From assembly GCA_002790095.1 (NCBI GenBank), contig PFUL01000153.1:1-40142 (forward strand): a stretch of 40,142 nt of DNA, read 5' to 3'. Every line of letters begins with the position of its first letter. The first letter of the stretch is position 1. A program made the position numbers and the translations under genes. A model generated the notes under the pieces. It worked only from the letters and a program-made list of their open reading frames with translations, searched no databases and was not told the origin of the DNA. This document shows positions 1 through 40,142 of this stretch, one piece after another. The DNA is from Elusimicrobia bacterium CG_4_9_14_3_um_filter_62_55. Lineage in GTDB: Bacteria > Elusimicrobiota > Elusimicrobia > UBA1565.

Positions 1-1
1 C

Positions 2-1984
2 TTCGACCTCGAGGTGGTGAACCCCGACGCGCGCTCGGGACTCAAGGTGGGCGTCGGCACCATCACCGTGCCCTCGGGCGAGCTCACCAACCCGGTCGAG
101 CCGCTCGTCTACACGACCGGCATCTCCCAGATCAATGGGACGGCTTCCTATAATCCGCTTCAGAAGCCGGTCTCGACCGGCACGGCCCAGGTGAAGCTCA
201 CCTTGGTCACGGACCCCGATGGGCCCGACGACGGGAAGTTCTTCACCGGCGCCGGCTGGAGCCCGGCCGAGACCTGGCTTAACTCGTCGCCCGATCCGGA
301 CAACGCGACCTGGAAGTACACCGGGTGGACGGCTCTCTACCAGGAGGACGGACACGAGTACCGGATCGACGTGCGCGGCAGGACGGAGGACCGCGGCTTC
401 GGACAGCCCGGCAACCCCTCGATCTTCACCGTGGACAAGGTGCCTCCCTCGGTCGCGTTCGTAGCGCCGGCGGCCAACTCCTCCCAGAGCAACTCCTTCT
501 CCGCCATTGCCGGCACGGCGATCGACCTCAACGGAAGCGGCCTCGACCGCGTCTGGTTCTTCGCCGCCGACACGGTCGGCACCGGCTCGGCCGGCGACGA
601 CGTCTACTGGACCGGCGCCGCGTGGGACACGGGCAACCCGGGAGTCGTGAGCTGGGTCGAGTTCAACGAGAGCCCGTTCAACGAGCCCGACAACGACGGG
701 GCCAAGAGCTTCGACGTCCTCAACGTGGAGTTGACCTGGCCGTCGTTCGAGGACGGCAAGAAATACCGGGTCCAGCTCCGCTCGAGCGACGACCTCTCCC
801 AGGAGAACGCGCCCTCGGCCACCGAGCGCGAGTTCTTCTACGACATCAGCCGGCCGACGGTGACGTTGCTGGCTCCGGTGCTGCCGTTGGGAGAGCAGTC
901 GGCCGGGTCGCCCTGGAAGAACCAGCTCCCGACGATCACCGGCACGATCGAGGACAACGTCGCCGACACGATCATCGGCAAGCGCTTCATCAAGCTCAAG
1001 ATCGTCGAGCAGGGCGGCACGCCGCTCTGGGACTGGCATACCTTGACTTTTGCCCCGTCGGTCGCCCTGGCGAGCTGGTCGATCGACGTCTCGACGACCC
1101 CCTACCAGAACGGCTTCTGGTACCAGGTGCTGGTCTACGCCGAGGACGCCGCGGGCAACAAGCACGGCACGCAGCTCGCGCCCGCGACGAGCGGCTACTT
1201 CCGGTTCGACGGCGGCCCCGCGTCCGGGGACGAGCCGACCGCGACGCTCGAGTCCCCGGCGAGCCCGGCCGAGGGCTCCGCGATCAACACGCTGCCGGTG
1301 CTGACCGGCACGGCCGTGGACCCCACCTCGGGCGCCGACCTCGTCGAGTACCGGCTCAAGGACGACATCACCGGCGAGTACTGGGACCCCGACGGGGGCG
1401 GGGGCTTGGGCGCTTGGAGCTCGACCCCCGGCATCGACACGACCTGGTTCGCCGCGACGATGACCGTGACCGGCGGGCAGCCCACCGATCCGAGCACGTG
1501 GGAGCTCACCGGCGTCACGTACAACTCCGGCAAACGCTTCAAGCTGTTCTACCGCGCCCGGGACCGTGCGGCCAACTACACGGCGAACTGGTCGACGCGC
1601 ACGTTCCGCTACGACAACCAGGCCCCGATCACGCAGGTGACGATCCCGGACTCCGCGTCCCCCGATCACTTCAAGTCGGCGTCCGAGATCCAGCAGATCC
1701 AGGGCACGTACGACGACCCGGGTTTCTCGGGCGTGAGCGACCTGCGGGTCCGGATCCAGCGCGCCACCGACAACCTTTATTGGGACTACGCGGGCAACTG
1801 GGTCGCGTTCTCGGAGGCCATCCAGACCCCGGCGGGGGGCGCGTTCAGCCAGGACACGAACTTCCTGGACGCGGACCTAAACGACGGGACCAGCTACTAC
1901 GTCTTCGCGTTCTCCCACGACGCGGCGACGAACGTGGAGACCGTCGCGGTCAAGGCCACGTTCTTCTTCGACGGGCAGAAGCCG
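2..1984 (+). other. N-terminal visible part of the Ig-like array (five domains)
   Basis: Five Ig/cadherin-like domains begin at about nt 2 (possibly incomplete), 449, 857, 1238 and 1628. Boundaries are placed after the Pro that ends each linker, such as VDKVPP, YDISRP and YDNQAP. Domains 2-5 carry the array signatures: a GT[AIY]xD turn, YW[TD] or LWDW aromatic motifs, and Asp-Ala-Ala or similar near the last strands. The first domain has NGTASYN in place of GTAxD and YRIDVRG in place of RAxDxAGN. Those are features of the type-3 domain of the later super-repeats, so this block may be the tail of a further, diverged unit. There are no cysteines in this stretch. Confidence 0.75.
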
Positions 1985-4900
1985 GTCGCCAAGCCGGTCT
2001 ATCCCGCGGGGGACCGGCTCAACTCGCTCCCCACGGTCTCGGGAACCGTCAGCGATCCGAGCCCCACTTCGCCCTCTCCCGGCGAGATCACCCTCGTCGA
2101 GACGCAGCTCGAGCGCCAGTCCGACAACTTCCACTGGGACGGCGGGAACTGGGTCAGCGACATCCCGGGCACGGTCTGGCGCAACGCCTGGCAGGCGGAC
2201 TTCGGCGCCTTCGGACCGCCGCAGAGCGGGACCTTCACCTGGACCTATCCGAACGCCACCTTCCCCGACCCGCTCATCGCCGGGACCTTGGTCAACGGGG
2301 AGACCTACCGGTTCCGCGCGAGGGCGACCGACAAGGCCGGCAACGTGCAGACCGCCTTCTTCACGAACACCTGGGTCCACGACGTGAGCAGCCCCGTCGT
2401 CAAGATCACGATCCCGAACGCGACGCCCACGACGAGCATCTCCTCGGTGGACGGGACGGCGCTGGACCCGGCGCCGGGGCTCATCCAGGAGGTGCGGGTC
2501 TGGTACCGGCACGTGGACGGCTCGTGCGCCTCGCCCTGCACGGGCAACGAGCAGTGGTGGGATCCTGCGACCGGGCAGTTCAACCTTGTGGGCTCGGCGC
2601 CGCCGGCCGCCGCCTACGCGAGCGCGGCGGTGACGGGCGTCGACTGGACGTTTACGGGCGACTCGACCCCGACCTTCTCCAACAACCAGTCCTACCAGAT
2701 CTTCGCGCGCGGCGTGGACGTCTCCTCGAACACGAGCCCGTTCCCGGGTCTCGGCAGCCCGGCGGACCGCACCGCCGGCGGGCTGGCCAAGGCGGCGGGC
2801 GCCTCGGGCGCGGGCACCTTCATCTTCTTCGAGTTCCGCCAGCCGCCGCCCGAGTCGGACATCGCGATCCCGGCGACGGACGGCAATTTCTATCCGATCG
2901 CGGGAGGCTCCGCGCTCAACTCCGTGAACGGGTCGCAGACCAACGGGACGACCGTGCAGATCCGGATCACGAACGTGACGACCCAGCCCGACCAGGTCTA
3001 TACGTGGGGGCTCGGGCCCGGCTGGCAGTCGACCTCCACGTGGCTCGGCGGCTGCAGCGATACCGACTATACGCCGGGCGAGGCGACCTGCGGCTTCCAC
3101 GGCGTGGACAGCCTCTCGTGGTCGAAAGACCTGACGGGGATCTGGCCCGCGGGCACGAACGACTTCCGGCTGGAGGTCCGCGGCATCCAGGGCACGCTCG
3201 TGGAGACTCCTCCGTTCGCGCAGAGGACGTTCGTGGTGGACGGCCAAAACCCCTCCGCCTCGGTGACGAACCCCGACGCGTCCGGGGGCGCGCGATCGGG
3301 GCAGGTGCGCTTCACGACCGCGACGGCCTCCGACGTTAGCCCGGGCCTGCTCGACTTCGCGACCGCCAAGTTCCAGATTTTCCTTTCCTCGGACACGGGC
3401 ACGCGCTGGAACGGCTCGGCCTGGGTCACGTCCGCGTCCGAACTCCTGGCGGCTTCGCCGGAGGGCGGGGGGAACTTCCAGTACAGCGACGCCTCTCTAC
3501 AGGCCGACACGGTGTTCGAGGACGGGGTCCGCTATACCGTCGAGTTCCGCATCGCGGACCGGGCCGGGAACACCACGATCACGAACCGCGAGTTCCGCTA
3601 CGACCTCGGGACGCCGAGCGGCGGGATCTCGGTCCCCTCCGCGGACCTGAGCACGAACAGCCTCACCCAGCTCTCGGGCGCCTTCACGGACCCGGACCCG
3701 AACCTGGGCGACAACCCCGGCGACACGGAGCCCTCCGGCGTGGCCCAGGTCGAGGTGCTGCTCAAGGCGCGGGGCTCGTTCAACGCGACCTGGCTCGGGA
3801 CCTACGGCGGCAGCATCGCCGACTGGGATGACTCGGCCTCCAAGTACGACGAGTCCCATTGGATCGACGCCGCCGTCTGGCAGACTTCGTGGAGCATCGT
3901 GCTGCCCTCCCTGTTGCCGGTCAACAATCACAAGTTCTCGGCCTGGATCCGCGTCACCGACAACGCCGGCAACCAGTCCGGGACGCCGTCCACGGTCGAG
4001 CTCGACGCGAACCAGAACGCGGGCGGCTCTCCAGCCCACACCTTCACCTTCGACGCGACGGACCCGCTCACCGACACGACGATCCCGCTCGCCGGCGAGT
4101 CCCTCCCCGGCGGGCTCGAGACGATCGCCGGGACCGCGGACGACGCGGGCGTGGAGCCGAGCGGGATCCTCGAGGTCCGCATGAAGCTCGGCCGATCGGA
4201 CGGCTCGTATTGGCACTTCGTCTCGAACAACTGGACCGCGACGGCGAACGACAACTTCGGCGTTACGGGAACCGACTCGTGGAGCAAGCCGCTCTCGGCC
4301 TCGGCCGTCCAGAACGGCTACCGCTACGACGTCATCGCCTTCGCCAGGGACAACGCGGGGAATAACCTCACGGGAGCGATCTCCTCTACGAGCACCTTCG
4401 TCGTCGACTTCACCTCGCCGACCTCGAAAGTCTCATTCCCGGGCACCGGGGGATTCGCGGGCGCCGGAGCCATCGCGATCCAGGGTACCGCCGACGACCG
4501 GTACTGCGCGATCGTCGCCGGCTCCTGCCCCGGCGCCGGCGGCCGAGACCACCAGAGCGGGATCGAGGCCTCCGTCGTGAACGCCTCCAGCGTCGCGATC
4601 GCGCTCGAGCGCGTCTTGGACGGCTTCTACTGGAACGGCCTGTCTTTCGCCGACACGAGCGGTTCCCCGGCCTGGTCGACGGCGACCTACGTCGGAGACT
4701 CGAGCGGCACGTTCAGCTATTTCCTCCCGGCGGGAGCGCTCTCCGACTTGGCGACGTACCGGATATCCTCTCGCGTGTTCCGCGACCGGGCCGGCGACCG
4801 GCAGCTCGTCTTTACGACGAACACGTTCTCGGCGGACTTCTCCCCGCCGGCTTCCGTCGTCACCGATCCCGCTCACAACTCGACCAAGGAGTCGATCGCG

Positions 4901-7900
4901 ACCATACTCGGTACCGCTCAGGACGTCGGCGCTGCGGGCATCTCGAGCGTCTACGTCGCCTACTACAGCGAGACGCTCGACCAATGGTGGAGCAAGTCGG
5001 CGAAGACGTTCAGTCTCGCCAATCCTGTCAGCCAAACCCCTCCCGACGAGCCCGACGGGTCGTCGGACTATTGGGTCGAGGCGAGCACCAATAATCTCAC
5101 TCCGGTAAACTGGAGCGCTACGGGAGCTTCGACCCCCACGTTCGTGTCGGACAGCTTCTACCATGTGCTCGTGGCCGCCGCGGACAAGGGACTCAACCGC
5201 GAGGCGCGACCCGCGACGCCCGCCGCCGACACGAGCCGCATCCGCTTCCAGTTCATCGCGCCGATCCCGCGCTCGGGGATCATCCTCCCCCAGTCGGGGG
5301 ACCACTTCCAATCGGCCGCGGTGAGCCTGACCGGCACGGCCAACGACGTCGCGACGGGCGAGGAGCTCCGCATCAAGGACATCACGGGCGGGACGCATCT
5401 CGCGTGGGACCGGACCTTGTTCCCGCTGGCGGGCTCCTGGAAGTCGACCACGGCCTTCAACGGCTTCAACGCGGCCGAGTACACGGACACCGCGACGCCG
5501 AACGACGACACCTGGCAATACACGAGGATCGGCGCGGCGGACTGGATCGAGAACGGGACGTTCCGCAAGTTCCGCCTCGAGGCCCGGGCGCTGGGCACGC
5601 CGACCGAGAGCCCGGCGCAGTCCGTCGAGTTCTTCGTCGACGACGTCGTCCCGCAGGCCGGGATCACCCTCCCGGACCGGAGCTACCACAGGCAGTTGCC
5701 GATGCTCTCGGGCACGGCGACCGACAACGCCGATCCGGAGCCGAGCTCCCAGAAAGGCGTCTACTTCAGAGTGAAGCGCAACTCCGACGGCTGGTATTGG
5801 GACTTCACGCTGGGTCAGTTCGTCTCGACGGCGGTGAACTGCATCTCGGGGACCGACGCCACCTGCGCGGTCGCGGCGGGCGGCGGCGGCTCGTACTCGG
5901 CGACGCACGCCAAGTTCGCGGACGGGACGGCGTTCGTCAACGATCAGCTCTACGTGGTCGAGCTCGTCGTCAAGGACAAGGCCGGCAACGCCTTCACCGC
6001 CTCGCGCAGCTTCACCTGGGACTTGGACGCCCCGGCCGCCCAGATCGACGAGCCGAGCGGTATCGGGGCGATCAACTCCCTTTCGACGCTGACCGGGACG
6101 GCCGACGACGACTTCTCGATCTACGCGACGAGCGTCTCACTGCGGTCCATCCCCAAGGACAAGTGCTTCAACCCCGGCACCGGCTCATTCAACAAGGCCT
6201 GCCCCTATTGGCTCGGCACCTCCTCGAGCCCGGTCACAGCCTTGCGGCAGCAGTGGTCCTTCACGCACGCCGGACTGAACTCGGCCCTGAGCCTCGCGAA
6301 CACGCACTACACCTTGCTCGCCCGGTCAATCGACGCCGCGGGCAACGAGGACGCGGTCTTCTTCGCGGGCGCGGCCTCGCGGACCTTCCTCTTCGACGAC
6401 AAGTCGCCCACGACCGCGATGACCTTCCCTGCCGACGGGGGGGGCTACAAGAGCAGCGCCGTCGGAGGCATCGCCAACCCGATCGCGGGGTCTGCGGACG
6501 AGGTGAACCTGCCTTGGGGCGCCGGCCTGCGCCGTGTCGAGCTGCGGATCGGCTACTTCCTCGCGGGCGACGACACCTATTACTGGCTGCCTGGGCCGCA
6601 GCTTTGGTCCTCGGGGACCCTGGCCAACGGCGGCTATTTCGACACCGGCGCGGACCCCTTGGGGGCGGGGTCGATCTCCTGGGACTACGACGTGCCCGTC
6701 GCCTGGACGGCCTCGGACCGGCTCTACACCGTCGAGTCGCGGGCGGAGGACGACAGCTACCTCGCCGACGGCACGGCCTCGGGCAACGTCGGCGTTCCCC
6801 AGACGGCGGGCGTGGACGTCCGGAGCTTCGTGGTGGACGACAGCCTGCCGACGGTCGCGTTGACCGCGCCGACGACCGGGTACCTCCCCGCGCTGACGCT
6901 GATCGCCGGAACGGCGAACGGAGACCTCTCAGGATTGGACCGGATCGAACTGCGCATCCGTCGCGTCGGCGGAGGGGCCGACGAGGATTGGACCGGCTCC
7001 TCGTGGACCGCGCTGAACATTCACTACTCGACCGCGGCGTTCACGCCGGGAAGCGGGAACATCCCGTGGACCTACGACGATTTGGCCGGCGCCTTCCAGA
7101 ACGCGCAGGATTATCGGCTCTACCTCCGCGTTACGGACCTTTCCGGGAACCAGCGCATCGCTCCGGCCGGGGGGGACTTCACCTTCCGCCTCGATGACGC
7201 CCCGCCGACCGCCGCGCTGACCCGCCCCCCGGACCCGAGCATCGCGCTCAGCCCGCCCCCGTATTCGAACGCGCTCGCCTCGACGCGGCAGTTGACAATA
7301 ATCTCGGGCACCGCGACCGAGCCGGGCGGATTGCCGTCGGGTATTTCTCAGACCTGGGTCGCGATCGCTTCGGGATCCGGCTCGGGGGCGATGTGGTACA
7401 GCACGATCACGGCGCAGTTCAGCGTCGGCCCGCAACTCGCGATCCACTGGGCGACGACCGTCGTCAACGGCAGCCCGTGGTCGTGGAACGAGCCCGCGAT
7501 GACGAACCTCCTCGCAAACGGCAATGTCTATACGGTCTTCATGCGGGTCTTAGACGGGGCGGGGAACTCGATCGGGGACGTTTTGAACTTCAACAGCGCG
7601 GGCGCGATCTCGGAACCGTTCCTCTATGACGACGTGATCCCGACCCTCGGGATAGAGGCCCCGTCCGTCGCGTCGCACAACGCCGGCCTCGCGACGCTGT
7701 CGGGTACCGCGAGAGACCCGGGCGCCGGGCCTTCCGGCGTCAGCAAGGTCCGGATCGCGGTCCGCGATATCGGCGCGGGCAAGTGGTGGAATTTCACGCT
7801 CAACAACGGATACAACGTCATCGACCCGCCGGCGATCACCGGCGACGGGTGGACCGAGGCGTCTCTAGTGCAAAACGATCCGGTTCGCTGCCAGGGGGGA

Positions 7901-10900
7901 ACGCAGAACTTCTGCTGGTCGATTTCGTTCCCGGTCGGCCGCTACGTCGAGGGATTGAGCTACCAGGTCGTCGCGCGGGCCGAGGATACGGCGACGAATA
8001 CCGACGACGGCGCCCCCGGCGGCGGCGAGGGAAAAACCTTCATTTACGACAATACGCCGGCGGTTATCGTGGCGACCTTCCCTGCTCTGGGAGGGGCCTA
8101 CAACCTGGCGGGTCTGAGCGCGCTTGCCGGGACCGCCGACGATTCCGGAACCGGAAATTCGGGCAACGCCCAGGTTCAGATCCTGCTCAAAAACGATACC
8201 TTGGGCAGCTACTGGACCGGCCTTGCCGCCGATTTCGACGCCCCGCCGGGAGGATACGACAACTGGGTGACGGTCGGCGGCACGGATCAATGGAGCATCA
8301 ATTGGCCGACGCTCAACGACAATACCCCTTATGTCGTGTGGCTGCGCACGACCGACAACGCGGTGAACACCTCGACGCACCCGGCCTATCCGTCTCCGGA
8401 TCACTCCTCGCATCTCGACGCGAACAAATATCCCGACGGGGTCACCCCGGCCCTGAGCTTTACTTTTGACGATTCCCTGCCGGTATCGGAAGTGATCGAG
8501 CCGGCGAACGGCGCCTTCATCAACGACCTTGCATCGCTTGCCACGATCTCGGGAACGGTCTGGTCGGATCCGGCGGATTCCGCGAACGCGAGCCCGATCG
8601 ATCAGTTGCTCGCGAACCTCTGGTGCTCGGGCTGCGCGCCGGGCGCCGTTCCCGGGTGGTGGAACGGTTCGGTTTGGGGCGCCGGGGCGGAGCCTGCGCC
8701 GCTGTTTGGCGCGGCGGTATCCGCTCCGAGTTGGAGCGTCGGATTCTCGGTGACCTACGACGACGGCTATCAGTACAAGGCGTACACGCGCGGCCGCGAT
8801 CAGGCGCTGAACCTTGAGGTTCCCGAAGCGGTCGGAACCTTCGTCGTGGACCTGACGCGTCCCGAAGCGAAGACCGTGTTCCCCGCGCATTTGGGATCCG
8901 CCGGCGCAGGCACCGTCATGATCGCCGGCACGGCGGACGACCGTTTCTGCGCGTTCAATCCGGGGCTGTGCGTGGCGGGCGCGCGCGACTTCCAGGCGGG
9001 GATCGAAGCGTCGAGCGTCACCGTTTCGGTGGAGAAGCTTAGCGGCAACTGCCCGACGCTTCCCACGGTCAACAACTGCTGGTGGGACGGGAACTCGTGG
9101 GTCGATCAAGTCGCTCCGATTTGGTCGACCGGGACCTTCGTCGGGGCCTCGAGCGGTGCGTGGACATACGCATTGGCGTCGTACGCGCTGACCGACACGC
9201 AGAACTATAGAGTGTCCGCGCGGGTAAACTTCGACCGGGCCGGCAACTCGCAGATCGTGATCACGACGAATTCCTTCACCGCGGATTTTAGTCCGCCGAC
9301 GACGAAGATCCTCACGCCTCCGAATGCGACCAGCCCGGACTCGTTGCCGTTCATTTCCGGGACCTCGCTCGACGCCGGATCCGCGGGGGTGGAGACCGTC
9401 TACGCCGCCTATTACCACCAGGGCTCCAACAAATGGTGGAGTCAGGCGGCGCAGGATTTTACGCTTGCGAACCCCGGGGACAATAAGCCGCCGTTGCCGA
9501 GTCTCGACGCCACCTACTGGGTCCAGGCGTCCACCGACAACTCAACACCTGTGAATTGGTTCACCACCGGGGAGTCGACGCCGACCTTCGTGTCGGGGCA
9601 GACCTACCACGTGGTCGTCATCGCCGAGGATGTCGGTTTGAACCTCGAGGCGATTCCAGCCGCGCCGGCGGCGAACAGCGCCCGCCATTCGTTCACCTTC
9701 ACCGCGCCGACTCCGCGTTCAGAGATCGTCAAGCCCGCGGCGGGCAAACCGCATTTCTCGCCGGGTGCGGCGTCGCTCAGCGGTACCGCCAACGACCCGA
9801 CCACCGGGGCCGAGGCGCGCGTAAAGGACATCACCGTGGAACCGAATCTCGTGTGGAACGGGGGGGCGTGGATCAGTTCGGACACCTTCAACGACTTCAT
9901 CGCGATCAACTTCGTCGACAACGGCATCGGGGTGGACGACAACTGGGACTTCACGATGGCCCCGGCGTCGAATTGGACTCTCAACGGAGCGCTCCGAAAA
10001 TTCCAGATCGAGGAACGCGCAACGCCCGGTCCCGAGGCCCCGGCGAAGGGTCCCGTGGAATTCTATGTGGACGATGCGCCGCCGACGCTCGCGGTGACCC
10101 GTCCTGCGGCGCCTTTCCTTAATAAACTTTCCGCGCTGTCGGGAACGGCGGCCGACAACACCGATTCGCTCGGCGTCGGCGAGGGACAGAGCAAGACGGT
10201 GTTCTTCCGCATCGTCCGCATCGGAGACAGCGCGGTATTCGACGGCGTCGCCGGGAATTTCATCGCCCCGACCGGGAAAACCTGCTTCGCCGCGGACACC
10301 GACGACACCTGCTTGCCGGCGGTTTTCGTTTCTGGGACCCAATACAAATACGACCACGCGAAGATCGCCGACGGCACCGCGTTCACCAACAACGAGAGCT
10401 ATACCGTTGAAATCCGGGCCGAGGACGCCGCGAAGAACCCCAACACGGCCGGCTTCGGCTTCACTTGGGATCTCGATTCCCCCGCCGCGGGCATCATCCG
10501 CCCGACACTGAACGCGCCGATTAATTCCCTGAGCGCGCTGACCGGTACCGCGTCCGATGACTTTTCCATGTTCCATACGAGCGTCTCTTTGCGCAGCCTC
10601 GGCAAGAACCAGTGCTACAACCCGGGCACGGGATCGTTCAACCGGAACTGCCCGTTCTGGATCGAGACCTCCTCGGATGCGAGCGCGAACTGGACCTACA
10701 CGGACGCGAGCCTCAATTCCGCTCTGGCATTGGCCAACACGCACTATACGCTTCTGGTTCGCGCTATCGACGCGGCGACAAATCAGGACGTTTCCTATAC
10801 CGACAACGTCTCATCGTTCACCTTCCTGTTCGACAGCGCGGCGCCCGAAACCTTCTTGGCGTTTCCGGCCCATCAGCAGGCGTATAAGAGCGCGAACATC

Positions 10901-13900
10901 AGCGGCGTCGGCAACCCCATCGCCGGCAGCGTCGTCGATCCGGGCGCGCCGTGGAATTCGCCGGTCCGGAGGGTCGAATTGCGCGTCGGACATCTTGTCG
11001 CCGACGATACCTATTACTGGGAGCCGGGTCCGCAGATTTGGTCCTCGGGCACCTTGGCCAACAACGGCTACTTCGACAGCGGCGCGGTGGCGTTCACGCC
11101 GTGGTCCTACGACACTCCGATCACCTGGCTGGGAACCGATACTCAATATCGTCTCGAAGCGCGGGCCGAAGACGAAACCTTCCTCGGAAACGGAACCGCG
11201 ACCGGCAATAAAGAGGTTCCGAGTCAAATCGGGACGGACATCCGCACCTTCGTCGTCGACGACACGCCGCCGAGCGTCTCGCTGCAGGCGCCGGCGACCG
11301 GTTATTTGGCCTCCCTGACCGAGATTTCCGGAACGGCGAACGGGGATCTCGCGGGGTTGTCGCGCGTCGAACTCCGCGTTCAGCGCATCGCGGGAGGCGC
11401 CGACGAGGATTGGACGGGGTCTTCGTGGACCGCGCTCAACGAGCATTATTCGACGGCGACCTTCAGTCCAGCGCCGGGCGACATCCTCTGGAGCTACGAC
11501 GATTTAGACGGCGCTTTCCTGACCGGAGAGGATTACCGGCTGTTCATCCGGGCCTTCGACACCGCGGGCAACGAGAGACCGGCCCCCGTGAACGGGGATC
11601 TGCAGTTTCGCTACGATGATCAGACTCCCTCCGGAGGGATCACGCGTCCTCCCGGTCCGCTGCCGGCGCCGAATCCGCCCCCGTACTCGAACGCGGGCGC
11701 CTCGACGCGGCAGTTGACGGCCCTGTCGGGAACCGCGGCCGAACCTGGGGGCGTGCAGTCGGGGCTTGACGAAATTTGGGTGGCAATCTCCTCGGGTTCG
11801 GGGTCCGGCGCGAAGTGGTGGGATTACGGCGCCGGGGCGTTCAGCGTGGGACCGCAGTTGGCCATCCACTGGTCGTCGAAGGCCGTGACCGCCAATCCGT
11901 GGACCTACAACGATGCGAATCTCGCCGCCGCGTATCAAAACGGCGTTTCCTATAACGTGTTCCTGCGCATCTACGACCACTCCGGCAACGCGTTTGGGGC
12001 GGTGGTGAACTCCGACGACACGGGCGTCGTGAAGCAGAACTTCCTCTATGACGACGCGATGCCGACGGCGGCGATCGAGAAGCCGAACACGACGTTCCAT
12101 AACGCCATTTTGACGACTCTGTCGGGAACCTCGCGCGACGCGGGCGTGAGCGGCCTTTCCGGGCTCAAGGAGGTGCGGGTCGCCGTGAGGGACGTGGGCG
12201 CGGATCAGTGGTGGAACTTTACGACCGACGGCGGGTTCAACGTCGCCGACACGGACGTTAACGGCGACGCCTGGAGACTCGCGGCGCTCACGCAGGACGA
12301 TCCGGTGCGCTGCCAAAACGGCACCGAGAATTACTGCTGGAAGGTCGCCTTCTCGACGGGCCGTTACGTGGCCGGCAAGAATTATCAGGTCGTCGCGCGG
12401 CCCAAGGACAACGCGACGAATATCGATGACTCCGCGCCGCTCGGAGGCGAGGGCTATACCTTCGTTTATGACGATGCGCCGGCGGTGGTGAATTCGACAT
12501 TCCCGATCGCGGGCGCCTCGTACAACCTCGCGGGACTCGAGGCGCTGGCCGGAACGGCCGACGACTCGGCCACCGGCGCGTCCGGCGTCCAAACGGTCGA
12601 GATCCTGCTGAAGAACCCCGTCGGCAACACCTGGACCGGCGTCGGCGACGCGTTCGACTCGAACACCAACTGGGTGACCGTCAATGGAACGACCGAATGG
12701 AACAAGGCGTTTCCGAATCTGTCGGACAACGTCACTTACGTGATTTGGAAGCGTGCGACCGACGTGGCCTTAAATATCTCGACCTCGCCGACCCTCGTGG
12801 ACATCGGAAACAACCTCGAGGGCGACAGCGCGACGCCGGCTGTTTCGTTCACGTACGACAACTCGGCGCCGTATTCCGTGCTCACCTCTCCTTTGCCGAG
12901 TTCGTTCCCCTCGAACGTGGGGGCGCTCGCGACGATTTCCGGGACGGCGCACACCGACGTGGACGAACTCGTCACGAGCGGTTCACCGGTGAGCCAGGTC
13001 CTGTTGAATCTCCGCTGTTCGGGCTGCGGCGCCGGGGTGACGGCCGCATGGCGCGATTTGTCTTCTTGGGTCGCGGGAGAACCGAATCCGCCGTTGCGCA
13101 CGACGGCGTTCGCCTCCCCCGAGTGGTCGTTTTTCTTCAACGAGCCCGCGCTGTGGCGAGACGGCATGCGCTACGAAATCCACACCCGCGCGAGGGACGC
13201 GGCCGGCAATCCCGAATCGCCGAATTCGGTTTCCAGCTTCGTCGTCGACCTGACGACGCCCGCGTCGAAAACGACGTCTCCGACGCCCGGAGGCTACGCG
13301 AGCGCGTCGCTGACTCAGATCACCGGAACGGCGGACGACGAATTCTGCACCTTCAACCAGGGGCTTTGCACGGCGGGCGCGCGCGAGTACGAGGCGGGCA
13401 TCGCGGCCTCGAGCGTGGCGGTGACGCTGCGCGAAATCTTCGGCGTGAACAACTACTGGGACGGGAACGGATTCAACAGCGCGTCGCCGGTTTGGCTGGA
13501 CGCGAACTTCGTCGGCGCGTCGAGCGGCGTCTGGACGCTGCCGTTTCTCGCCGCGGATCTGACCTCGCCGCGCCAATACGAGGTCTCCTCGGCGGTGCGC
13601 GACCGCGCGGGCAACCAGGAGGTCGTCACCGTCACGACGGTCACCTTCACCTACGACATCAGCGCGCCGGTGTCTCTGGCGACGGCGCCGGTCGGCAACA
13701 TCGGCGGGATCGCCGGGATTTACGGAACGGCGAAAGACGACGCTCCGGGCTGGTTGGACCATATCGAACTGCTGATTAAGGAGACCGAGTGCGCTGACCC
13801 GGATGGAGCCTGCAACGTCAATAAGTATTGGACCGGCGCGATTTGGGACGCGAACCCGGCCTGGGTGGCCGGCGGGATCATCGGGGCGGAACTCGCGGGC

Positions 13901-25900: not shown

Positions 25901-28900
25901 GTGTACGGGCCGACCTCCTTTATCGGCGAGGTCGTCTTCCCGAACGTCCACATCAACTTTTCGGACGCGAACATCTTCGCCCGCGGCCTCAATCCGCTGG
26001 ACCAAAGCCTGATCAACGGGCGGAAGACGTTCTCGTTCGTGCCCGCCACTCGCACCGACGTGCCCGCGGGCCTGCCTTTGCAGTCGATCACGGCTCAAGA
26101 CAACGGGGCGACCTACGCGGCCGATACGATCGGAAGCCTCTCGGTCGATCCGGGTCCCTCGAACCGCATGCAGTTGATTCTGCCCACCGAATTCGCCGCG
26201 GAGGGTTCGATCTCGGGCAAGACCGGGACGATCGACACCTTCACGGCGGGCCAGTCGTTCTTGGCCACCGTTCGCGCGACCGATGCGTTCTGGAACCTGA
26301 CCAACGACGGACGCCTGATCGGCTTGGAGTCCTCGGACGTCTACGCGTCGACGCCGATCGCGACGCCGATGGTGGCCGGCGAGGCGGCGGTTTCGTTCAC
26401 GCCGCGCACCGCGGCGACCTTCTCGATCGGCGCGATCGATCTCGACGGGATCAGTCCGAAGCTCTCGACCCACACGGTAGGGAGTCTCTCAACGGTCCCG
26501 AACACCTTCGTGAAGCTGCTTTCGCTGATTCCCGGAGAGTCTTATACCCCCGGCAAACCCCCCTACGACACCGGAGTCGTCGGCGGCCGCACGGTGGACG
26601 CGTCGACGACGGTTCCCGCCGGGGCGCCGTTCCGCTTTACCGTACGCGCGGTGGATAATCAGTGGAACACGACGAATACGAATTTGCCCGTCTTCATGTA
26701 CACCGACGATTCCGCCGCGGTGGTCCCGGAGCCGACGGTCACGCTGCAGTCCGGCGTGACCTCCTTCCTGTTCACGCCGGTGACGGTCGGGGCGCGGACG
26801 GCAGGGGCTTCGCGTCCGGGCGTGGCGTCGAGCACCTCCAGCGTCTTTACCGTCGCCGGTTCGCGGCTGTCGCTGTTGGTGTTCGGCGAGACGCCGGATC
26901 CGGGCAATGTCGGGGCGCTCGGCCGCGCGGGCTCCCCGGCCGTCACGGTCGCGGGTTCCAGTTTCTCGGTCACGGTGCGCCTGAGCGACGCGAATTTCAA
27001 TCCGATCGCGGCCGGAGTTCCGATCACGCTGCGCTTCTTCTCCGACGACCCGTACGCGTCTTTGCCCGCCGACACCGTTTTGGAATCCGACGGCGAGAGC
27101 ACGTTCTGGGTGACCTTGGCTTCGGCCAGCGCGCTCGGCGGCGGATCGACGGTCTGGGTCGTGCCGGCGGCGAACCCGAACGTTTCCTCTTCGACCTCCA
27201 CCGTGCTTCCGGTGATTCCGAACGAGCCGTCGAAGCTGTTGATTCTCGGCCCCGGCACGAGCCTGGATAAGGGCTCCCCGACCGGCATGACCGGGGCGGT
27301 GATCTCGACGACGGTCGGCCACGATTATCCGGTCGAGGTCTATGTCACGGACGCTTGGTTTAACCCGGTGCTCTGCTCGGAGTACCCGGTCGGCCCGCCG
27401 GCGCCCGACTGCGTCGAACCCTCGGTTCAGTTTGCGTTTACCGATCCGCATGCCGCGCCGCCGGCGAATCAGACTATTTTCGGCGGCAGCCGGACCATCA
27501 ATCTGTCCTTCCGCACGAACACGGTCGTGGATCCGATCGGCGGCCCTTGGTCGATCTCGGTGTCCACCATCGACGGCACTCCCGTTTCCTCTTACACGGT
27601 CGGCGGTCTTGTGGTGAACCCCGGTCCCCCGTCCCGCTTCCAGATTCTCGTCCCGACGGAGACGGCGAAGCCCGGCGACACGGTGCAGCTCGGCCGCTCG
27701 ACGCAGTCGGCGATTTCTCAACTCGCGGGGTCGACCTTCACCGTCACCGTCAACCTGGTCGATCAGTTCTTCAACCGGGTGGCGCCCGGCTTCAACTCGA
27801 CTTTCAAGTTGACCTCGACCGATCCGAACAACCGCTTGAACACGATCGTCGCCTCCTCGACGACGGTCAACGGCCAGTTGACGGTCGCGAATGCGTTCTT
27901 GGTCACCCAGGCGACGACGACGGGCTGGACGATCACCGCCTCGACGGCTACCGGGGATCCTTATCTGGCCTCGGAGTCGACGCCGTTCAACGTGTACCCG
28001 TCCACGCCGTCGCAGATGGTCGTCGTGCTCAACGGCCAGCAGCAGAAGGACGGCGTCGGCGTGATCGGCAATCCGACGACCAGGACCGCGGGAGAGTTGA
28101 TCACGGTTCGCGTGATCGCCGTGGACCCGGGCTTCAACCTGACGCCGAACGTGAACAAGACGGGCATTCGCTTGACATCCTCGGACGGCTTCGCGCAATC
28201 CTCCTGGACGCTGACGATGGCCGACGGCGTCTCGGTGGCGTCGGTGACTTTGCGCACGGCCGGGATTCATAGCTTCTTCGTCACCGATCAAAGCGGCGCC
28301 TCCCCGCTGCTGGCCGGCTACGCCTCTTCGACCTTTACCCAGGTCGCCAACAACCCGACCCGGCTGCGGGTGCTTCTGCCTGATGAATTCGCGGTGGCGG
28401 GTTCCACGAGCAACGGCCGAACGGGAACGGTCGCCGACCAGAACGCCGGATCGACGATGACCTTGACCGTGCAGCTGACCGATGCGTTCTGGAACCTTAC
28501 GCCCGGCGCCAGCCAGCAGATTCAAATCGTGCCGACCGATCCGTTCGCGACGGTGGCCCCGTCGACGCTGACCGTGCTCGGGCAGGCGACCGTGGACGTC
28601 GTCTTCAAGCGCGCCCAGCTTAACGAGGTCCGCGCCGAGATGCTGTTCCCCTCGCCGCCGTGGGGCCCGACGGTGGCCAAGGACACGAGCAGCGTGGTCA
28701 ACGTGCTGGCCGGCGCGCCGAAGAATCTGCTGGCGATCGTGCCGGGCGAGTCCTTCGATCCGGGCTCGAACAGCGGTAAAACCGGAATTCCCCTCGACAG
28801 TCTCAAGGCGGGCGTTCCGTTTCTCGTCACCGTCGGCATCATGGACCAGTTCAACAACATGGTCGTCGGCCGCGCGGCGACCGCGGGGCTGAAAATCCCA

Positions 28901-31900
28901 TCCGGCTATCCGTTTACCATCGTTTCGGATACGAAGGCGATCGACACGTCGGTGGGCTATACGGTACCGCCGATCCAGGCGTCCTTGGTCGCCGCGGCGA
29001 CCTGGCATCAGGTGATCGCCGAGGACTTCTTCTCCTCGGGTATCCAGGATTCGCCGTTCTCGTCGACCTTCACGGTGCATCACAACGAACCCGTCGGCAT
29101 ACAGCTCTTGGCGCCTGGACAGGTGAACGTCGGCGGTCTGGGGGTCTATCCGGCGGGCGGCAAGACCGGTACGGCCAGCACGCGCACGGCGGGCGTTCCG
29201 TTTCAAGTGACGGTCAACCTCGTCGACCTTTACAACAACGTGACGACCGAGATCTCATCGGGGCCGAGCGTTTTCGTCAACACCGGCGATGAGTTCGACA
29301 TCGACTCCGCTACGGCGCCTCTCTCTTCCGGAAGCCGCGCGGTGAGTCTCGCCTTGGTCACGAAGTCGGCCGGCGTGCTTATTTCCGCGGGCGTGCAGGC
29401 TCAGGGGGTCGATGAGATTTGTACCGGCAACCTGCCCGGAACTCAAATCTGTTCCGTGCAGACGCCGGCCGCCGTCAGCCCTCCGATCAAGGTTTTCGCC
29501 TCCACGGCGACGAAATTCCATGTTTTGCTCGCCGGCGAGACCTTGGTGCAGGGACAATGCGACAACCTCGTCGTCTGTAAATCGCTGACCGGAGGGCAGC
29601 GGCCCGGCAAGAACGGGACTCCCGCTCCGTTTACGATGACCGTGCCGCAGACCGCGTTCCAGGCCTCGGTGTACCTGGTCGACTCGTACTACAACGTTGC
29701 GACCGAGCGCACGCTCGGCGCCCAGGACACGAACCCGATCGCGACGATGCCCGAGGTGGAGTTGATCCTCGCCGGCGACCCGATCGCGACTCCGCCCGCC
29801 CCGAACGCGCTGCAATTGGGGTCCTGGATCTACTCGGTCGTGCCGATTGCCGCGTTGTCCACATACACGGTCGTCGCGCAAACGACTTCCGCGTCTGCGG
29901 TTTATTTTAGTTCTTCGGCGTCGGCGGATTTCAGCGTCTACCCCGGTCCGGAGCATCATTTGCATTTCGAAGGGGTGCCCTCAAGCGCGGCGGCGGGATC
30001 CGGGATCTCGGTGGTGCTGACGGCGCACGACCAATTCCACAACCTGCTCTCGACCGGGCCGAACATCTATGTGAGTACGGTCAATCTCACGGCCGAGATT
30101 TACCTCCCGCCGCAGGATCCCGAGTTCAGCCCGTTCGAGTTCTCCTACGGGGAAGGCGATTTTGGCGTGAAGATTCTTCCGAGCGCTTTTAAGCTCAAGA
30201 AAGCCGGCTTGCGCTGGATCAAGGCGGCCCAGAAGGACGACGCACTGGTGACGACCGAGCGTCCGGGCTTCTCGACCCGGCCCCTGATCGACATCATCCC
30301 CGGAAATCCGGGCGCGGTGAACGTCGCTCCGGGGCCGACGAGTCAGATCGTGAACGTCCGGGCGGGGTCGATTCTGAGCCCCGGCGTTCAGGAGATCACC
30401 GGTCAGCTTTCCGACGCGTACAACAACCCCGTCGTCTCGAGTTCCCCGGTCGAGATGGAGATCGTCGATGTTGCCGGGGTGCCGGGCATTTTCGTGTACG
30501 ACCCGGGAGGCGGCTGGGTGGACGTGGGTCCGTCCACGACGGTGTTCACCGATGACAAGGGACGGATCGGTCAAAACGGCGATCCGGACAACGTAAACTT
30601 CCCGCTGGGTTACAAGGTCGGAAGCACCGCTGGAAACTCGGCGCGTATTTGGATCGCGACCGCTTCGGCTCCCGCTGATTTGACGCCCTACATTCTCAAC
30701 CAGCGCAACCTTTCGGGAACTTTGCTGACGATCGGCGGAAAGCCGAGCCGGTTGGTGTTCCTGTCAAGCACGCCGGTCGCGCCGGTTACCGACGTTCCGG
30801 CCGGGGGCGGCAACTTCATCATCCAGCGTCTTGACGATTTCGGCAACCTGACTGATCAGGGGCAGACCGATGTGGTTCTCTCTTTGCCGGCGTCTCAGAT
30901 CAACGTCCATCAAAATTCCGGTTTCCGGTCAGGGACTCCGTTTACGACCTCGGGCGACTTCGGCTTTATGGAGCCGAATTCGCCGTTTAACTTCGTCAAC
31001 TCGTTGTCGATTTCCGACGGTTTGACTCAGGCGGGCTTCCGTTTCCGCTCGAAGATGGCCTCGTACTCGGGGGTCTCCCCGGCTTCGAACACCTTCTACG
31101 GAGGCCGCCCCGGTTATTGGACGCTTTCGCTCAATCCGAGCGACGTCAGCGTTGCTTCGGTGACGCTGCAGATGCAGATGGATCCGCAGCCGCTGCTGCG
31201 GCTCGGGTTCGGAAACCAGCCGAACAAGCAGTTGGCTGGAAAGGTATACGACGTGGGCGGCGTGACCCTGCGCTCCTACCAGATTCAAACCCGCGACCTG
31301 TTCGACAACCCGGTCGTGGCGACCGCGCCCGTGACGGTCGCGATTTCGACGTTATCGCGGCAAGGTTCGGCGGTGTTCGACGGGTTCTCGTTCTCGGCTT
31401 CAAGTGAAATCGCCGCGGGTATTCCGCCCCTGTTTACCACCGAGATCACGTCCGCGACGATCCCGGCGCTCCAATACGAGGCGACCTTCTTCTACCTCGA
31501 CACGCACGCGTCCGATGATTATCCGGGCAGTTGGGTGTATCCGGGCGGCTTCTCGACGGGGCCGGTAATCGGAATTCGCGACATCGCGAACGTGCTGATC
31601 TCGTCGGCGCAGTACGTGAAGGTGCTCCCCGACAACATTACCCGTATCGCGGTCGAACCCCTGGCGAGCGGGGGAGTGTTGCTGGCGGGCACGACGAGCG
31701 TGCCTGTGCTGGCCCAGGTCCAGGACCGGTTCGGTAATCCGTCGCCGATCCAGAGCGGACAGGAAGACGCGTCTTCCTCTTACGTCGCGTTCGAGGCGTT
31801 CTCGAACTCGTTGGGCGCGCTTCAGTTCTCGAGCCCGGACCCGACTTCGTTTATCGCCTCGACCGGGGTGCTGCGGATGCAGGCCGGCGAGCACACGACG

Positions 31901-34900
31901 ACCTTCTATCTCATCGATACCTTGGTGGGTCCGACGACCTGGGAGGTTACCGTCGAGGAGATCCAGGACCGCTCATGGAATCCCTCGGTCGCGACCTATA
32001 CCGTGATCCCCGGCCCGCCGGTATCGATGCGGTTTTCGAGTCCGATCCGCTACTTGGTGGCGGGAACGACGATTCAGTACAGCACCGCGACCGGTCTCCC
32101 GACCGAATCCTACATCGACATCGAACTCGTCGATCAGTTCGGCAACCTGACCTCGTCGAGTTGGGCGTTCCATACCGCGCTGTTTAATTCGCAGAACTCC
32201 CCGACGACCTTCGGGGGCTTCGATCCGAACAAGCCCATCGACCCGGGAACCTGGGACCGCATCGGGCCCTCGGATCCGGCGCTCGCGATCAGCATTCCGC
32301 CGTTTACGAGCAAGGCGCGGGCCTACATCTGGGACACGAAGGTCGGCACGACGACGCTTCAAGTGGCGATTGTCCGGCAGGACGGCGTCTCGATGACCGG
32401 CATCAACAGCGGCGGCTCCGTGGAGACCCAGGATCAGGTTATCACCCCGGCCCCGGCGGACTTCATTACGATCCATCATCCGTTCTCCGCCGGCTCTCCT
32501 CTGAAGGTGAACGTCCCCGGCGCGATCGGCCGCTCGGTCGGTGGGGAACTGCTCGGCGTCGTCCTGCGGGATAAGTTCGGGAACATCGCGCGCGGGCACC
32601 CGATCAACGGACAGTATTTCGAGGGTCTGGTGCAGTTCGCGACCTCGGGGTCGACGAGCACGGTCGCGCTCGACGATCTGACCGACAGCACCACGGTGCC
32701 CAACGCCTATTGGTTCAAGGGCGCCGCGGACGCGTCCCCCGGCATCTTTACCGGGCTGCAGGTCGTCGATTCGATCGTGGAATCGCTGAAGATCTGGGCG
32801 ACCGCGCAAAACATGCCGACGGTCTACGGCTTTACCAGCGACGCGGGCCGCTCCTACAACGACACGACCTTCACCCCGTCGACCAATTCCGACGGGGACG
32901 TCTTTATCGCCGGCGTCGTCTTCTTTCCGACGGATATGGCCCCCGAGAAAGGTCCCGACGGGCTTGTGGTCCCGGCGAAGTTGGCGGTCGGCCAGACTCG
33001 GCCGACGATCCGCCAAGGCGACGGAAACGTCGGCGATCCGCCGGTGCAGATGATGCGTCTCACCGCACGCGTTCTGCCGTCGAGCGCGACCTTCCTCACC
33101 GCGGAACTCGGCGGGCTGCGGGTGCAGCGCACGGGCCTGCTCGATCCGAACCACGTGAGCGAATTGGGCCTGTGGTACGATGAGGACGGAGACGGCGGCT
33201 TCGACACCGCGTTCGACGTCTTCCTCGGCAGCGCGACGCTCGACGGCGTGGAATGGGCCTTCGGCGATCCGATCTTCGGCCAGACTCCGCTGAACGTGGT
33301 CGACTCGACCCGAACGGTGATCGAAACGGTCGCGAAGAATTTCTTCCTCACGCTGCGGATGGATTCGACCGGCTACGCCGATTCGGAGCTGCCGTCGAGC
33401 CTGGGACTCCGGCTGCCGGGCCCGTCGTTCGTGCGCCTTTCCACGAACAGCCAGGTGGGCGTTGCGTCGAACAATTTCGCGATCCAAACCGCGACCTCGC
33501 CGGTGGAACGTCAGGCCGCGAAGATCAATGTGGTCGGTGAGAGCATCGGTTCCTGGTGGCGGGCGACCGACGATTTGGGCAACCCGCTCCCGCTGTCGAG
33601 CTATTCCTACGTGGACCAGGGCGCGAGCATGGTCGGCTACCTAAAGCTGGACATGTGGACCGACGACTTCGTCGGGACCGTCGGCTCGATCGTCGTCGAT
33701 CACAACGGCGACGGCGCCGACAGCGACATCAACTCGGTGCGGCTGTTCGTCGAGAGTTCGGCCGAGGGCGATCCGTTCTCCGGAAACGGATCGTTCCAGC
33801 CGCTGACCGATACCGAAATCACCAACCCGCTCAGCCCGGTGACTTTCCAGAACCGCAGAGCCTCGCTGCAGCTGGATATCCGTTTGACCGATCCGTTCAA
33901 CGAGGCGCAGAGAACGGTGTCGGCGTCGACGATCACCTACTACGTGGTGCTCTCCTACGCGCCCGGCGCGACTCCCGAGAAGTTCCACGGACTGCAGGTC
34001 GCCGGCGCCGCCAGCGTCATTCCGCTGGCCGGCAACGGCGACGTGCAGCCGTTCACGGCGATCGTCTCCACGCTCTCGCGCGTACGCGCGACCGCCGATC
34101 TGGCTTTGATCGAAGCCGTGAACGCCCAGGGCTGTCCGCTGCCGGGCAACAATTGTCTTCCTCAGGAGTTCACCGCGTCGGTCGCGGGTTCCATCACCCA
34201 GGCGGACAAGAACGCCCCGGTCATGAAGCTGTCCATGAAGACGGTCTCGGGGTCGGCGCTGTGGAGCGGTCTCAAGATGGACCGCTGGTTCCATTCGTCG
34301 CAGCAGGGAGGCGCGGTCGTCGTTCGCAACAAGGCCTCCGACGTTTCGGATATCAAGATCTGGGCCGACGTCAACGACAACGGCCTGCTCGAACCCGCCA
34401 CCGACCAGGTCGTTTCGCCGCTCTCCGGGTTGATCCATAAATTCCCGACCGCGAAATTGGCGGTGTCGATCAACTCCACCGCGCCGTCGCCGATCGACGT
34501 GTTCGTCGACAACATCGCCGCCTACATCCCCGACGACGATCCGTTCCCGATCGTCCCGCAGCGCCTGGTCTTCGCCGATGATCAGATCGACGAGTCCGGC
34601 AAGGAGGTGATGCTCTGTTCGGACGTGGACTTCTCTTCGAATGTGTGGAAGAACTGTCTGCGCGCCCAAGAGGGGACGCAGCAGATCACGTTCACGACGG
34701 GAACGGTGATTTCCGGGCCGGCGCGCATCCCGCTTTTGGGCTTGGGCGGGGGGCAGACGCTCGACACCTTCGGCGGGGACTACTTCGTCGCCTTCGACGT
34801 GAACCCGCTGGCCACGGTCTCCGATGAGGCGAACCTGGGCATCCTGATTCCCAATACCTTCTATTTCCTGATCCAAGAGCCCAAGTCCATGTCGACGGTC

Positions 34901-37900
34901 GGTGTCGGCATGCCGCCGCCGATCACCGTCGACGGCAAGACGCTGTCGGTGGTCAAGAACGTCTCGCCTTACGCCGACAAGGTCGTCGTGATTACGACCA
35001 ATACCGTCGACGACCAGGATCTCGGGCCGTTCCTGCAGCAGAAATCGACGAGCGCGGTGCTGGCCTTCGAGATGTATTCCGATGTCGCCGACACTCAATG
35101 GCGCTGGGTGCTGGTGCAGGCGACGGGAACCTCGGCGGCGGTCGGCGCGCACGTGAACGACATCGAACGGGTCTCGCTCTGGCGCGACGCGAACAACGAC
35201 GGCCTGTTCCAGCAGGGGACCGACGAGATGCTCGGCAGCGGCGTGTACGGCAACTCGGGCAACCCGAGTCTGGTGCGTTTGGATCTTTCGACTCCGACGA
35301 GCATCAAGACCGTCGCGGCCGCGAGTCAGCCGCAGCGCTTCTTCATCGCCTATCTGATCTCCGCGAACGCCGTCACCAACGACCCGGTCACGCAGGCGCC
35401 GCGGACTCTCGGCGCGACCTTGCTCGACACCTCGTTCCCTCAGAACAATCCGACGGTCGATGAACCGGGCGCGAATTCACTGTCGCTGCCGGACCGCTAC
35501 GATACCGCTTCGTCGCTGCCGTTCGGCGGCAAGCTGCGCCAGTTGATCCCCTCGCAGCAGACGATGTTCATGAAGACGACTCCGATGTTCTCGTCGAGTT
35601 CCGGAACCTTCGCGGCGCCGCTCTTGAATTTCTCGGTCATCGCGGCGACGGCTTCGGGCGTGGTGGAACCGTATTGGATCGTCACCTCGACGGCGGGTCT
35701 CCCTCTCGGCGGCCCGACGACCTACATGACGATCGACGAGGAGATCATCAGCTACGAGGGGGTCGGCCAGGTGCTGGGGCAGGACGCGCTCGTCAACGTC
35801 CGCCGCGGCATGCTGGACACCGCGCCTCAACCGCATTCCGTCGGCGCCGTCGTCGCGCCGCAGATCCGCCAGGGATCGCTCAACAGCGCGGTGATGAAGA
35901 TCGAGGCCTGGTCCAGCGCGTTCCAGGTCCAGTGGGAGCGAACGACGCTGAGCTTCGAGATCCCTCCGGGAATGAACGTCAACGACGGCGACATCGCCAA
36001 GGTGAAGCTGTGGAAGTCGCTTGAGCCCGCAGGCGCGCCCGAGTTCCACCGGACGGCCGGGGAGGGTTCGGACGCGGGGCTCAATCTCGTCGACGCGCTG
36101 CTCGGCGAGGGCGTGATCTCCAACGGTCTCGTGCTGATCGACATCAACGACCCGCTGTTGATCGGCGCGGACTACACCTTGGTGTCGCAGTCAACCGCCA
36201 CCTTCTTCGTCTCGTTCGACATCGACAAGGCGTCGCGCTTCTCGCACGAGCAGCTCTCGCCGGCCAATGTGATCGTCGGCCGCTACAACCCGCAGCCGCT
36301 GGACTTCCAACTCGGCCCGGTGGGCGCCGGCCATCTCACTCAGGTCGTCGATTCGATTCAAAGCCCCGCCTCGCCGATCGTGCCGACCATCAATACGCTG
36401 ACGCTGACGATGTCGCGTTTTTCGCCGAACTCGGCGGTGCAGAACGAGCAGTTCGTGCCGATGGTGAAGATTCGCGCGCAAACGGATGTGAATACGGTGC
36501 GCTGGGAGCAGCTCAATTTCGACCGCATCGGCTCGACGACCTCATTGGATATCGACGTGTCTTTGCTGCGGGTCTGGCAGGACGGCAACGGGGACGCCGC
36601 CTTCACCGAGGCGGACCGGTCGACGGACTCGCTGGGCAACTTCGTCAATATGATCTCGGTCGGAAACGAGACCTTCGAAACCGGCGCCAAGAACATCGTC
36701 TTCAAGGCCCCGGTGACGGTCTCGACGACGCCCACGAACTACTTCGTCACCTACGATTTCTCGCAATTCGCGGGCGTCGGGGCGACGCACGGGCTTTCCA
36801 TCGGCTCGACGGGCTACATCAAGGTGGAGGTGCCGCACTCGGTGAGCTTCTCGAGCCCGTCGTTTCAGACGAACCCGCAGGTCATCATGAACGAGGTTCC
36901 CTCGGCCGTGACGCTCGGCGTCAACGACGTGATCTTTAATACCGGACGCAGCGAGGTCGGACAGGCGCAGTCGAAGGTCGAGTTCCTGCGGATGAACCTT
37001 GCGACCGACATCGGAACGGCGCGCTGGCTGAAGCTGCGCGTCGAGCGCGGCGGGGCGTCCAACGACGAGGGCTTCACCGCGGGTCGGAACACGAACGTGG
37101 GCTTCATCAATATTTGGAGCGACATCAACCAGAACGATATCCTCGATGCTCCCGACGTGAACGTGACGGAGGCGAACACCTTCGTGCAGCAGCCGATCGT
37201 CTCGACTCAGACCGCGCCGTTTACGATGGTGCTGGGATCGACGACCGGCTTCCCGGTCAGCGGGCAGGGCCGGCTCTACGCCGGCGGTGCCGAGTTGATG
37301 AGCTTCAGCGGCGGCTACGGCGCCGCGCTGATTCAGGGAACGACCTATCCGACGGTGACGATCATCAGCCGCGGAGACCGGTTCGGCGACGGTCCCACGC
37401 CGACTTTGGATCTCGCGTTGGGAACTGCGATCCGCAAGGTGGACTTGTTTAATCAAAACAACGACAACGACGTTCAGACCGTCGTCGAACTCGCGGTGCC
37501 GCAGACGATCACGCCGGCGGCGGGCGTCTTCTTCGTCACCTACAACATCGGCGCGACCGCCGTGAAAAACGATCAGTTGGCGATCAAGATTCTCGACAAA
37601 TCCTGGGTCGGCGTCAGCGCGCCCAACGACACCACCGGGCTGATCTATAAGGACGTGACGAAGTCCAAGGAAAAGGGCGACTCGGTCGTCGCCTATCCGT
37701 TCGAGGGGGCGAAGGTCTTCATTTCCCCGCTGCAGCTGATCCTTGAGGCCCGCAATATCGCGCCGGCCGCCTCGATCGGCGGCCAGCGCAACGTTCCGCT
37801 CGAACAGGTCACGATGTCGGTGAACTCCGATTTTGTGCGCGTGGCCCAACTCCAATTGACGCAGCTCGGAACCGGAAAAACCGGATCGGCGGTCGGCCAA

Positions 37901-40042: not shown

Positions 40043-40142
40043 GGATCCTCCAAGTTTCCCCAGTTTCAACGACGGACCCAACGCATTGGTTTCGGCCTGA
40101 AGGGCCGATGTTTCGGATTTTGAACGAACCAAACCCGAAGCG
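40043..40142. other. 3' flank of the giant gene
   Basis: The last 100 bases contain no open frame of useful length and no recognisable ribosome binding site. The only structure I see is the short hairpin at 40092-40108. The string TTTCGG occurs twice (40090-40095 and 40111-40116) as a direct repeat of no evident meaning. Confidence 0.6.
40092..40121 (+). terminator. Possible weak intrinsic terminator
   Basis: TCGGCC (40092-40097) and GGCCGA (40103-40108) form a perfect 6-bp stem with a 5-base loop TGAAG. A moderately T-rich tail, TGTTTCGGATTTT, follows. The stem is short and the T-tract is interrupted by CGGA, so this may be chance. Its place 50 bases after the stop codon favours a real transcript end. 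Confidence 0.35.

Follow-up and report, generated by a model that had tools for sequence, protein, structure and literature searches.

The giant genes of bacteria are described as specific to single strains and mostly have no known role, and SiiE is a giant adhesin built from Ig repeats. The closest working model for the giant described here is SprB of Flavobacterium johnsoniae (approximately 6,500 aa, 150 nm; PMC13104615), a surface protein that rides on SprF and is moved by GldLM (PMC12635249, PMC13104615). In Myxococcus, the Agl/Glt gliding machinery (PMC13104615) uses MotAB-like stators for movement without a flagellum; the Agl stators form a non-flagellar branch (PMC12505986). The giant of Velamenicoccus archaeovorus reaches 39,678 aa with 42 predicted TM helices, and Velamenicoccia giants are described as poorly conserved (PMC10066038). 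Elusimicrobiota are rich in proteins longer than 5,000 aa (PMC11573180) and their giant genes are already known as a class (PMC11573180, PMC12057145). In the open-access PMC literature (preprints and subscription papers excluded) we found no report of the giant family presented here or of its linked FliF/FliG/TPR–MotAB module, and no paper tying an Elusimicrobiota giant to a set of partners. The gene studied here, 42 kb long and from an uncultured bacterium, is linked in many relatives to flagellar-type motor genes, in cells without a flagellum export gate; this suggests that the giant is a motor-coupled surface adhesin.

The window, i.e. the whole stretch of DNA analysed (40,142 nucleotides), is the entire contig C26 of an Elusimicrobiota MAG (4.31 Mb in 202 contigs, 95.4% complete). 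One frame is open from 2 to 40042 on the + strand (13,346 codons), and its sole stop is the TAG at 40040–40042. The GC3 of this frame is 0.81–0.95 across all ten 4-kb segments, and a value so constantly high in one frame indicates that no frameshift is hidden in the gene. ORFs of several hundred codons are found in many other frames, the longest being an antisense ORF of 1,096 aa; they are expected from the high GC3 and are without independent support here. Compared with the nearest relative read (L035, JACPXC010000064.1, whose matching coordinates suggest that it is contig G185:C25), the giant has 61.8% amino acid identity over 4,291 aligned codons, with per-position differences of 0.31, 0.23 and 0.45 at codon positions 1, 2 and 3, mostly at position 3. 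The NG86 estimates are dN 0.33 and dS 0.84; judged by these substitution rates, the coding sequence is under purifying selection. That the gene is real is almost certain, and the frame scan and the end-to-end GC3 signature bear out the claim of the earlier note that this is a single gene with an uninterrupted frame of 13,346 codons.

The same note placed the start of the gene outside the window and expected a larger protein, which the neighbouring contig confirms. Bases 1–47 of the window (+ strand) are identical to the last 47 bases of contig C171 (4,357 bases); the junction lies, by eye, inside an IPT/TIG-like domain. The frame runs on into C171 without a stop up to an ATG at C171:2725, and the last in-frame stop is a few codons 5′ of it. 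The N-terminus read from this ATG, MKHRTRESSRRRRGGWIAGALLPALLCLLPRAALGAAAS..., looks by eye like a typical export signal, so that the leftward extension proposed earlier does reach an in-frame start with a signal-peptide-like sequence. Four genomes (G130, G112, G127 and G140) each span the C171/C26 junction in single HSPs (160–205 columns, 41–55% identity), and in several genomes homologues of the C171 part and of the C-terminal part are found in one ORF. We are highly confident that the giant starts at C171:2725. The full protein comprises 13,875 aa (1.47 MDa, pI 4.5), i.e. 529 residues beyond the part encoded in the window, or about 4% more.

Concerning the domain plan, most of the protein consists of repeats. 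The largest region (122–24667, + strand) contains 62 Ig-like repeats of the Big_3_2/Big_13/OmpL47 type (iterated HMM, i-E<1e-3), each with a domain of approximately 110 aa and a period of approximately 134 aa. On this array, the Pfam models Big_3_2 and Big_13 score 39.7 bits (cut-off 23.3) and 47.4 bits (cut-off 27), and NCBIfam barrel_OmpL47 scores 53.3 bits (cut-off 40); in the PDB, the best matches of the Ig profile are weak, namely 2yn3 at E 0.0034 and a structure entitled Adhesin. A block duplication spans 4475–13261 (+ strand), where Ig domains 12–22 (4475–8863) are repeated as domains 23–33 (8918–13261). Domains 11 apart are 40–62% identical, against a background of 22%, and this duplication is one visible step in the growth of the giant. 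A second repeat, RegB, follows in 13 copies (25016–29875, + strand) with the pattern ..PGE..PG...GKTG...AG..F.VTV...D..FN.. and has no useful match in Pfam or PDB. The third region, RegC (32015–38314, + strand), contains at most five weak repeat units and a sub-threshold hint of GEVED. The C-terminal domain (39734–40039, + strand), of the T9SS type A/FlgD-Ig type, ends in RKIGVIH and is the most conserved part of the protein. An AlphaFold model of the last 1,200 aa consists mostly of strands at low confidence (mean pLDDT 42). The N-terminal domain matches nothing in the PDB at E≤1, and a propeller or sialidase fold for it is only an impression. Pfam and NCBIfam found no catalytic domains in the segments of the giant that were scanned.

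The giant belongs to a family which is widespread in its phylum. Homologues of its C-terminal 2,346 aa are found in 108 of 341 Elusimicrobiota genomes (E≤1e-20), and giant homologues in 69 of the 192 genomes with at least 90% completeness and at most 5% contamination. We read 16 relative loci, 15 of them closed at both ends; each of these 15 is a single ORF of 11,265–19,358 aa (lengths are stop to stop, and a few include an untranslated leader). The shared plan consists of a signal peptide, an N-terminal domain, an Ig-like array, a second repeat and a C-terminal domain resembling T9SS type A. The order of the Ig-like array (45–88 copies) followed by RegB (9–33 copies) is common to all 16 loci and the window, and identity to the window is higher in the C-terminal domain (50–69%) than in the Ig array (32–51%). 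The first proposal from the sequence, a single huge chain built of coherent repeats, is supported, and the same domain order recurs in 15 single-ORF relatives. The earlier note had named Omnitrophota as an example of a lineage with genes of this scale; the lineage here is Elusimicrobiota. Such giants had also been said to be rarely of known role, and none was offered for this one; the conserved neighbourhood now suggests one, and a homologous family with a fixed C-terminus in such a neighbourhood makes the role of the giant testable.

In the relatives read, the giant is followed on its 3′ side by genes for a PorV/PorQ-family barrel with TPRs, a fusion protein, a coiled coil, MotA, MotB and a lipoprotein. 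The whole module is found after the giant in L032 (CALMZU010000115.1) and L035, and in L034 (MGUI01000010.1) up to MotA, where the stretch examined ends. The PorV-family neighbour scores 102–112 bits with NF033709 (cut-off 90) in relatives. The genome of the window has a complete and ordered module on contig C119, with a PorV of 104.6 bits by the same model (cut-off 90), preceded by an epimerase-like ORF. The window ends 100 bp after the giant, and no overlap of its end with C119 was found. The fusion protein comprises an N-terminal signal or TM segment, a periplasmic domain, a TM helix, FliG_M, FliG_C and TPRs. In this genome FliG_C (91.2 bits) and FliG_M (40.8 bits) are both above cut-off; the full-length FliG model TIGR00207 is below cut-off in relatives. 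In the G324 homologue, the periplasmic domain matches the full YscJ_FliF_C profile with 24.3 bits (cut-off 23.8); its counterpart in this genome scores 22.8 bits. In a low-confidence AlphaFold model, this domain has the order helix–strand–loop–strand–helix–strand, and the top PDB match of the fusion model in Foldseek is FliF (E 1.9e-5). The stators of this genome are above cut-off for MotA_ExbB (86 bits), MotB_plug (39.2 bits) and OmpA (69.2 bits), MotA_N is below it (17.6 bits, cut-off 27.3), and MotB carries the motif YSDLMT. The best models for MotA in relatives are those of flagellar MotP/MotA. By eye, the FliG residues which contact MotA in E. coli are only partly kept in the fusion, a point against a motor role.

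In 44 genomes the fusion gene lies 3′ of the giant, on its strand and no more than 12 kb away; the distance is within 4.5 kb in 37 of them, with a median of about 2.2 kb; the 44 genomes represent at least nine family-level groups. The giant and the module were not seen linked in this genome, G225 or G244. Based on presence alone, the fusion (E≤1e-50) is found in 97 of the 108 giant-bearing genomes, and the giant in 97 of the 117 fusion-bearing ones; 213 genomes have neither, 11 have the giant without a strong fusion match and 20 the fusion without the giant, many of these being fragmented assemblies. Since whole clades lack both, we also ran tests within families. The counts for both, giant only, fusion only and neither were 22/1/9/12 in family f3 (p 1.6e-4, Fisher, genomes treated as independent) and 35/4/4/16 in family f8 (p 1.5e-7, Fisher, phylogeny ignored). 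We consider it probable that the giant works together with the motor module.

The flagellum export gate protein FlhA is found in five of the 341 genomes (G110, G117, G167, G169 and G188), and together with a strong fusion match in G110 only (one of the 117 fusion-bearing genomes). It is absent from this genome by a search which was positive in four control genomes, including E. coli and B. subtilis. As FlhA is nearly absent from fusion-bearing genomes, the motor is almost always separate from an ordinary flagellum. The FlhA-bearing genome G188, which is placed in the same genus as the genome studied here, lacks both the giant and a strong fusion match, but it is only 78% complete and its FlhA contig (L173, G188:C59) is a candidate for misbinning; four ORFs checked on that contig gave no match to FliF.

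Several features concern export. The only strongly hydrophobic stretch of the giant is close to its N-terminus, and two others are marginal. The C-terminal domain scores 21.0 bits with TIGR04183 here and 18.1–22.1 bits in three members of the family (cut-off 23); its other matches are the C-termini of T9SS cargo and FlgD. A profile of this domain hits 13 places in the genome, including the giant, and the second best is on contig C106, where a 1,439-aa open frame (L161, i.e. G000:C106, ORF 1–1785) ends in VLKIGVIH and is directly followed by a PorV-like ORF from 1837 (64.9 bits, cut-off 90); the two resemble a sprB–sprF pair. Going by these sequence signals, the giant is very probably exported to the surface. 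The SprA model matches this genome with an E of 1.3e-17, below cut-off, and is above cut-off in none of the 341 genomes; weakly SprA-like proteins occur in 291 of the 341, lineages without the giant included. ORFs of about 1,800 aa (e.g. L157 and L158) align to different portions of the SprA model, with scores under its cut-off, and one SprA-like member gave no match in Pfam or PDB; these ORFs are possibly a divergent T9SS translocon. GldM (TIGR03517) was not found in this genome. A further export-type feature is the spacing of the 69 Cys residues of the giant, with 32 gaps of at most 15 aa between neighbouring residues, compared with 4.9 expected and a maximum of 13 in 2,000 shuffles. Such closely spaced Cys residues are also frequent in G189 and G225, whereas G324 and G244 show the pattern weakly or not at all, and it looks lineage-specific.

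Based on the above, there is about an even chance that the giant is a T9SS-like, motor-coupled surface adhesin or filament, held by PorV and driven by FliF/FliG/TPR and MotAB. Sec would take the protein over the inner membrane, and a divergent route of the T9SS kind over the outer one, where it would be held by the PorV-family barrel whose gene directly follows that of the giant in relatives. The rotor would consist of the FliF-like periplasmic ring domain, the TM helix, FliG and the TPRs in one protein; MotA/MotB stators would drive it by protons, with the giant coupled to the motor. Scaled from SprB, the stalk would measure approximately 0.3 micrometre, and it would grip a surface as the motor moves its base, in the manner of SprB/SprF in Flavobacterium gliding. 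Contact of the giant with PorV and the motor, its movement and its adhesion are what we infer from these comparisons. We put the chance of the giant travelling along the surface, or propelling the cell, just short of even. More tentatively, flagellum-lacking Elusimicrobiota may have an undescribed machine for motility or surface transport, in which FliF–FliG–TPR and MotAB would move an adhesin of 11–19 thousand aa via a PorV-type barrel. If the coupling is true, rotor and stator parts of the flagellum work elsewhere in these cells, together with a surface protein of the T9SS-like kind, and this has a bearing on the recruitment of rotary motors for gliding and secretion.

The motor could instead serve export. 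FliFG/MotAB would then supply the power for passing the giant through the outer membrane, and the giant itself would be a static adhesin, coat or tether; we regard this as rather unlikely, though still a serious alternative. The T9SS motor serves export as well as gliding (PMC12635249, PMC13104615). The giant has a C-terminal domain similar to type A sorting domains and a PorV-family carrier as neighbour, and with GldM not found in this genome, T9SS-like export would need another motor. However, SprA-like proteins are present in 291 of 341 genomes and the fusion in 117, so the translocon, if it is one, does not generally depend on this motor, and other proteins of the same genome have a C-terminus of the giant type. 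As the SprA-like protein is the more widespread of the two, there is a mild argument for a motor in the service of the giant and not of the translocon. It is unlikely that the giant is a static protein for adhesion, coating or predation, as proposed for Omnitrophota, with the motor module as an unrelated neighbour. Giant ORFs with proposed roles in adhesion or predation are common among related phyla (PMC10066038, PMC12057145). Arrays of Ig-like domains typify adhesins, to which the weak PDB matches (2yn3, E 0.0034, and the Adhesin entry) also point, and three genomes, including this one, did not show the linkage. Against it, order and strand are conserved in 44 genomes spread over nine or more family-level groups, and giant and module are jointly absent from many members of two families. 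Also, no catalytic domain was found in the giant segments scanned, and there is no array of TM helices like the 42 predicted in the Velamenicoccus giant.

A further explanation is an ORF fused from separate genes during assembly. The window does come from an assembly in 202 contigs, and its contig is interrupted on either side, with a dispersed repeat as its tail. This explanation is extremely improbable, however, as 15 independently assembled relatives of 11–19 thousand aa are single ORFs with the same domain order, which makes a contig misjoin very unlikely; the constant GC3 in one frame and the purifying selection also stand against it. An assembly chimaera was rejected based on the relatives and the codon signature.

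Returning to the motor-coupled adhesin, the locus shares with SprB/SprF/GldLM a very large surface protein, a T9SS-like C-terminus, an outer-membrane barrel partner, a predicted proton-driven motor of the 5:2 class and cells without a flagellum export gate. The giant is about twice as long as SprB, and its partner is of the PorV type, not SprF. Unlike GldLM and the T9SS, the motor here is MotAB with a FliF/FliG/TPR fusion, GldM was not found, SprA is weakly matched and movement is hypothetical. The module has FliG_M/FliG_C, MotA, a MotB that includes the plug and OmpA domains, and a putative C-terminal ring domain of FliF in common with the bacterial flagellar motor. It differs from that motor in having FliF-like and FliG parts in one chain with added TPRs, in the absence of FlhA, and in its gene neighbours, which are a PorV-family barrel and, in many of the relatives, also the giant. 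As GldM and FlhA were both searched for and not found, we do not class the system as a member of the T9SS or the flagellum. Agl/Glt likewise combines MotAB-like stators with movement without a flagellum, but the best MotA models here are flagellar and are accompanied by a FliG rotor and a giant protein. The giants of Omnitrophota are similar in size, in belonging to a related phylum group and in their suspected surface role; the phylum-wide conservation, the fixed C-terminus and the one signal-like hydrophobic stretch set the present family apart. SiiE has similar long arrays of bacterial Ig-like domains, whereas the giant has a T9SS/FlgD-like C-terminus, and secretion ABC genes are absent among the conserved neighbours seen.

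Concerning the flanks of the gene, a dispersed repeat of approximately 95 bp occupies 40043–40142, and the contig breaks inside it. It has 13 other matches in the genome at 77–100% identity, three of them at contig ends; an Rfam search of the window gave no match. GC inside the giant gene is 67.5–69.5% in window positions 1–8000 and 61.7–65.5% thereafter. Just upstream of the giant, at C171:1843–2706, there is a secreted-looking HEAT-repeat protein, and in 10 of the compared loci a HEAT-repeat protein is encoded close to the giant, mostly directly upstream.
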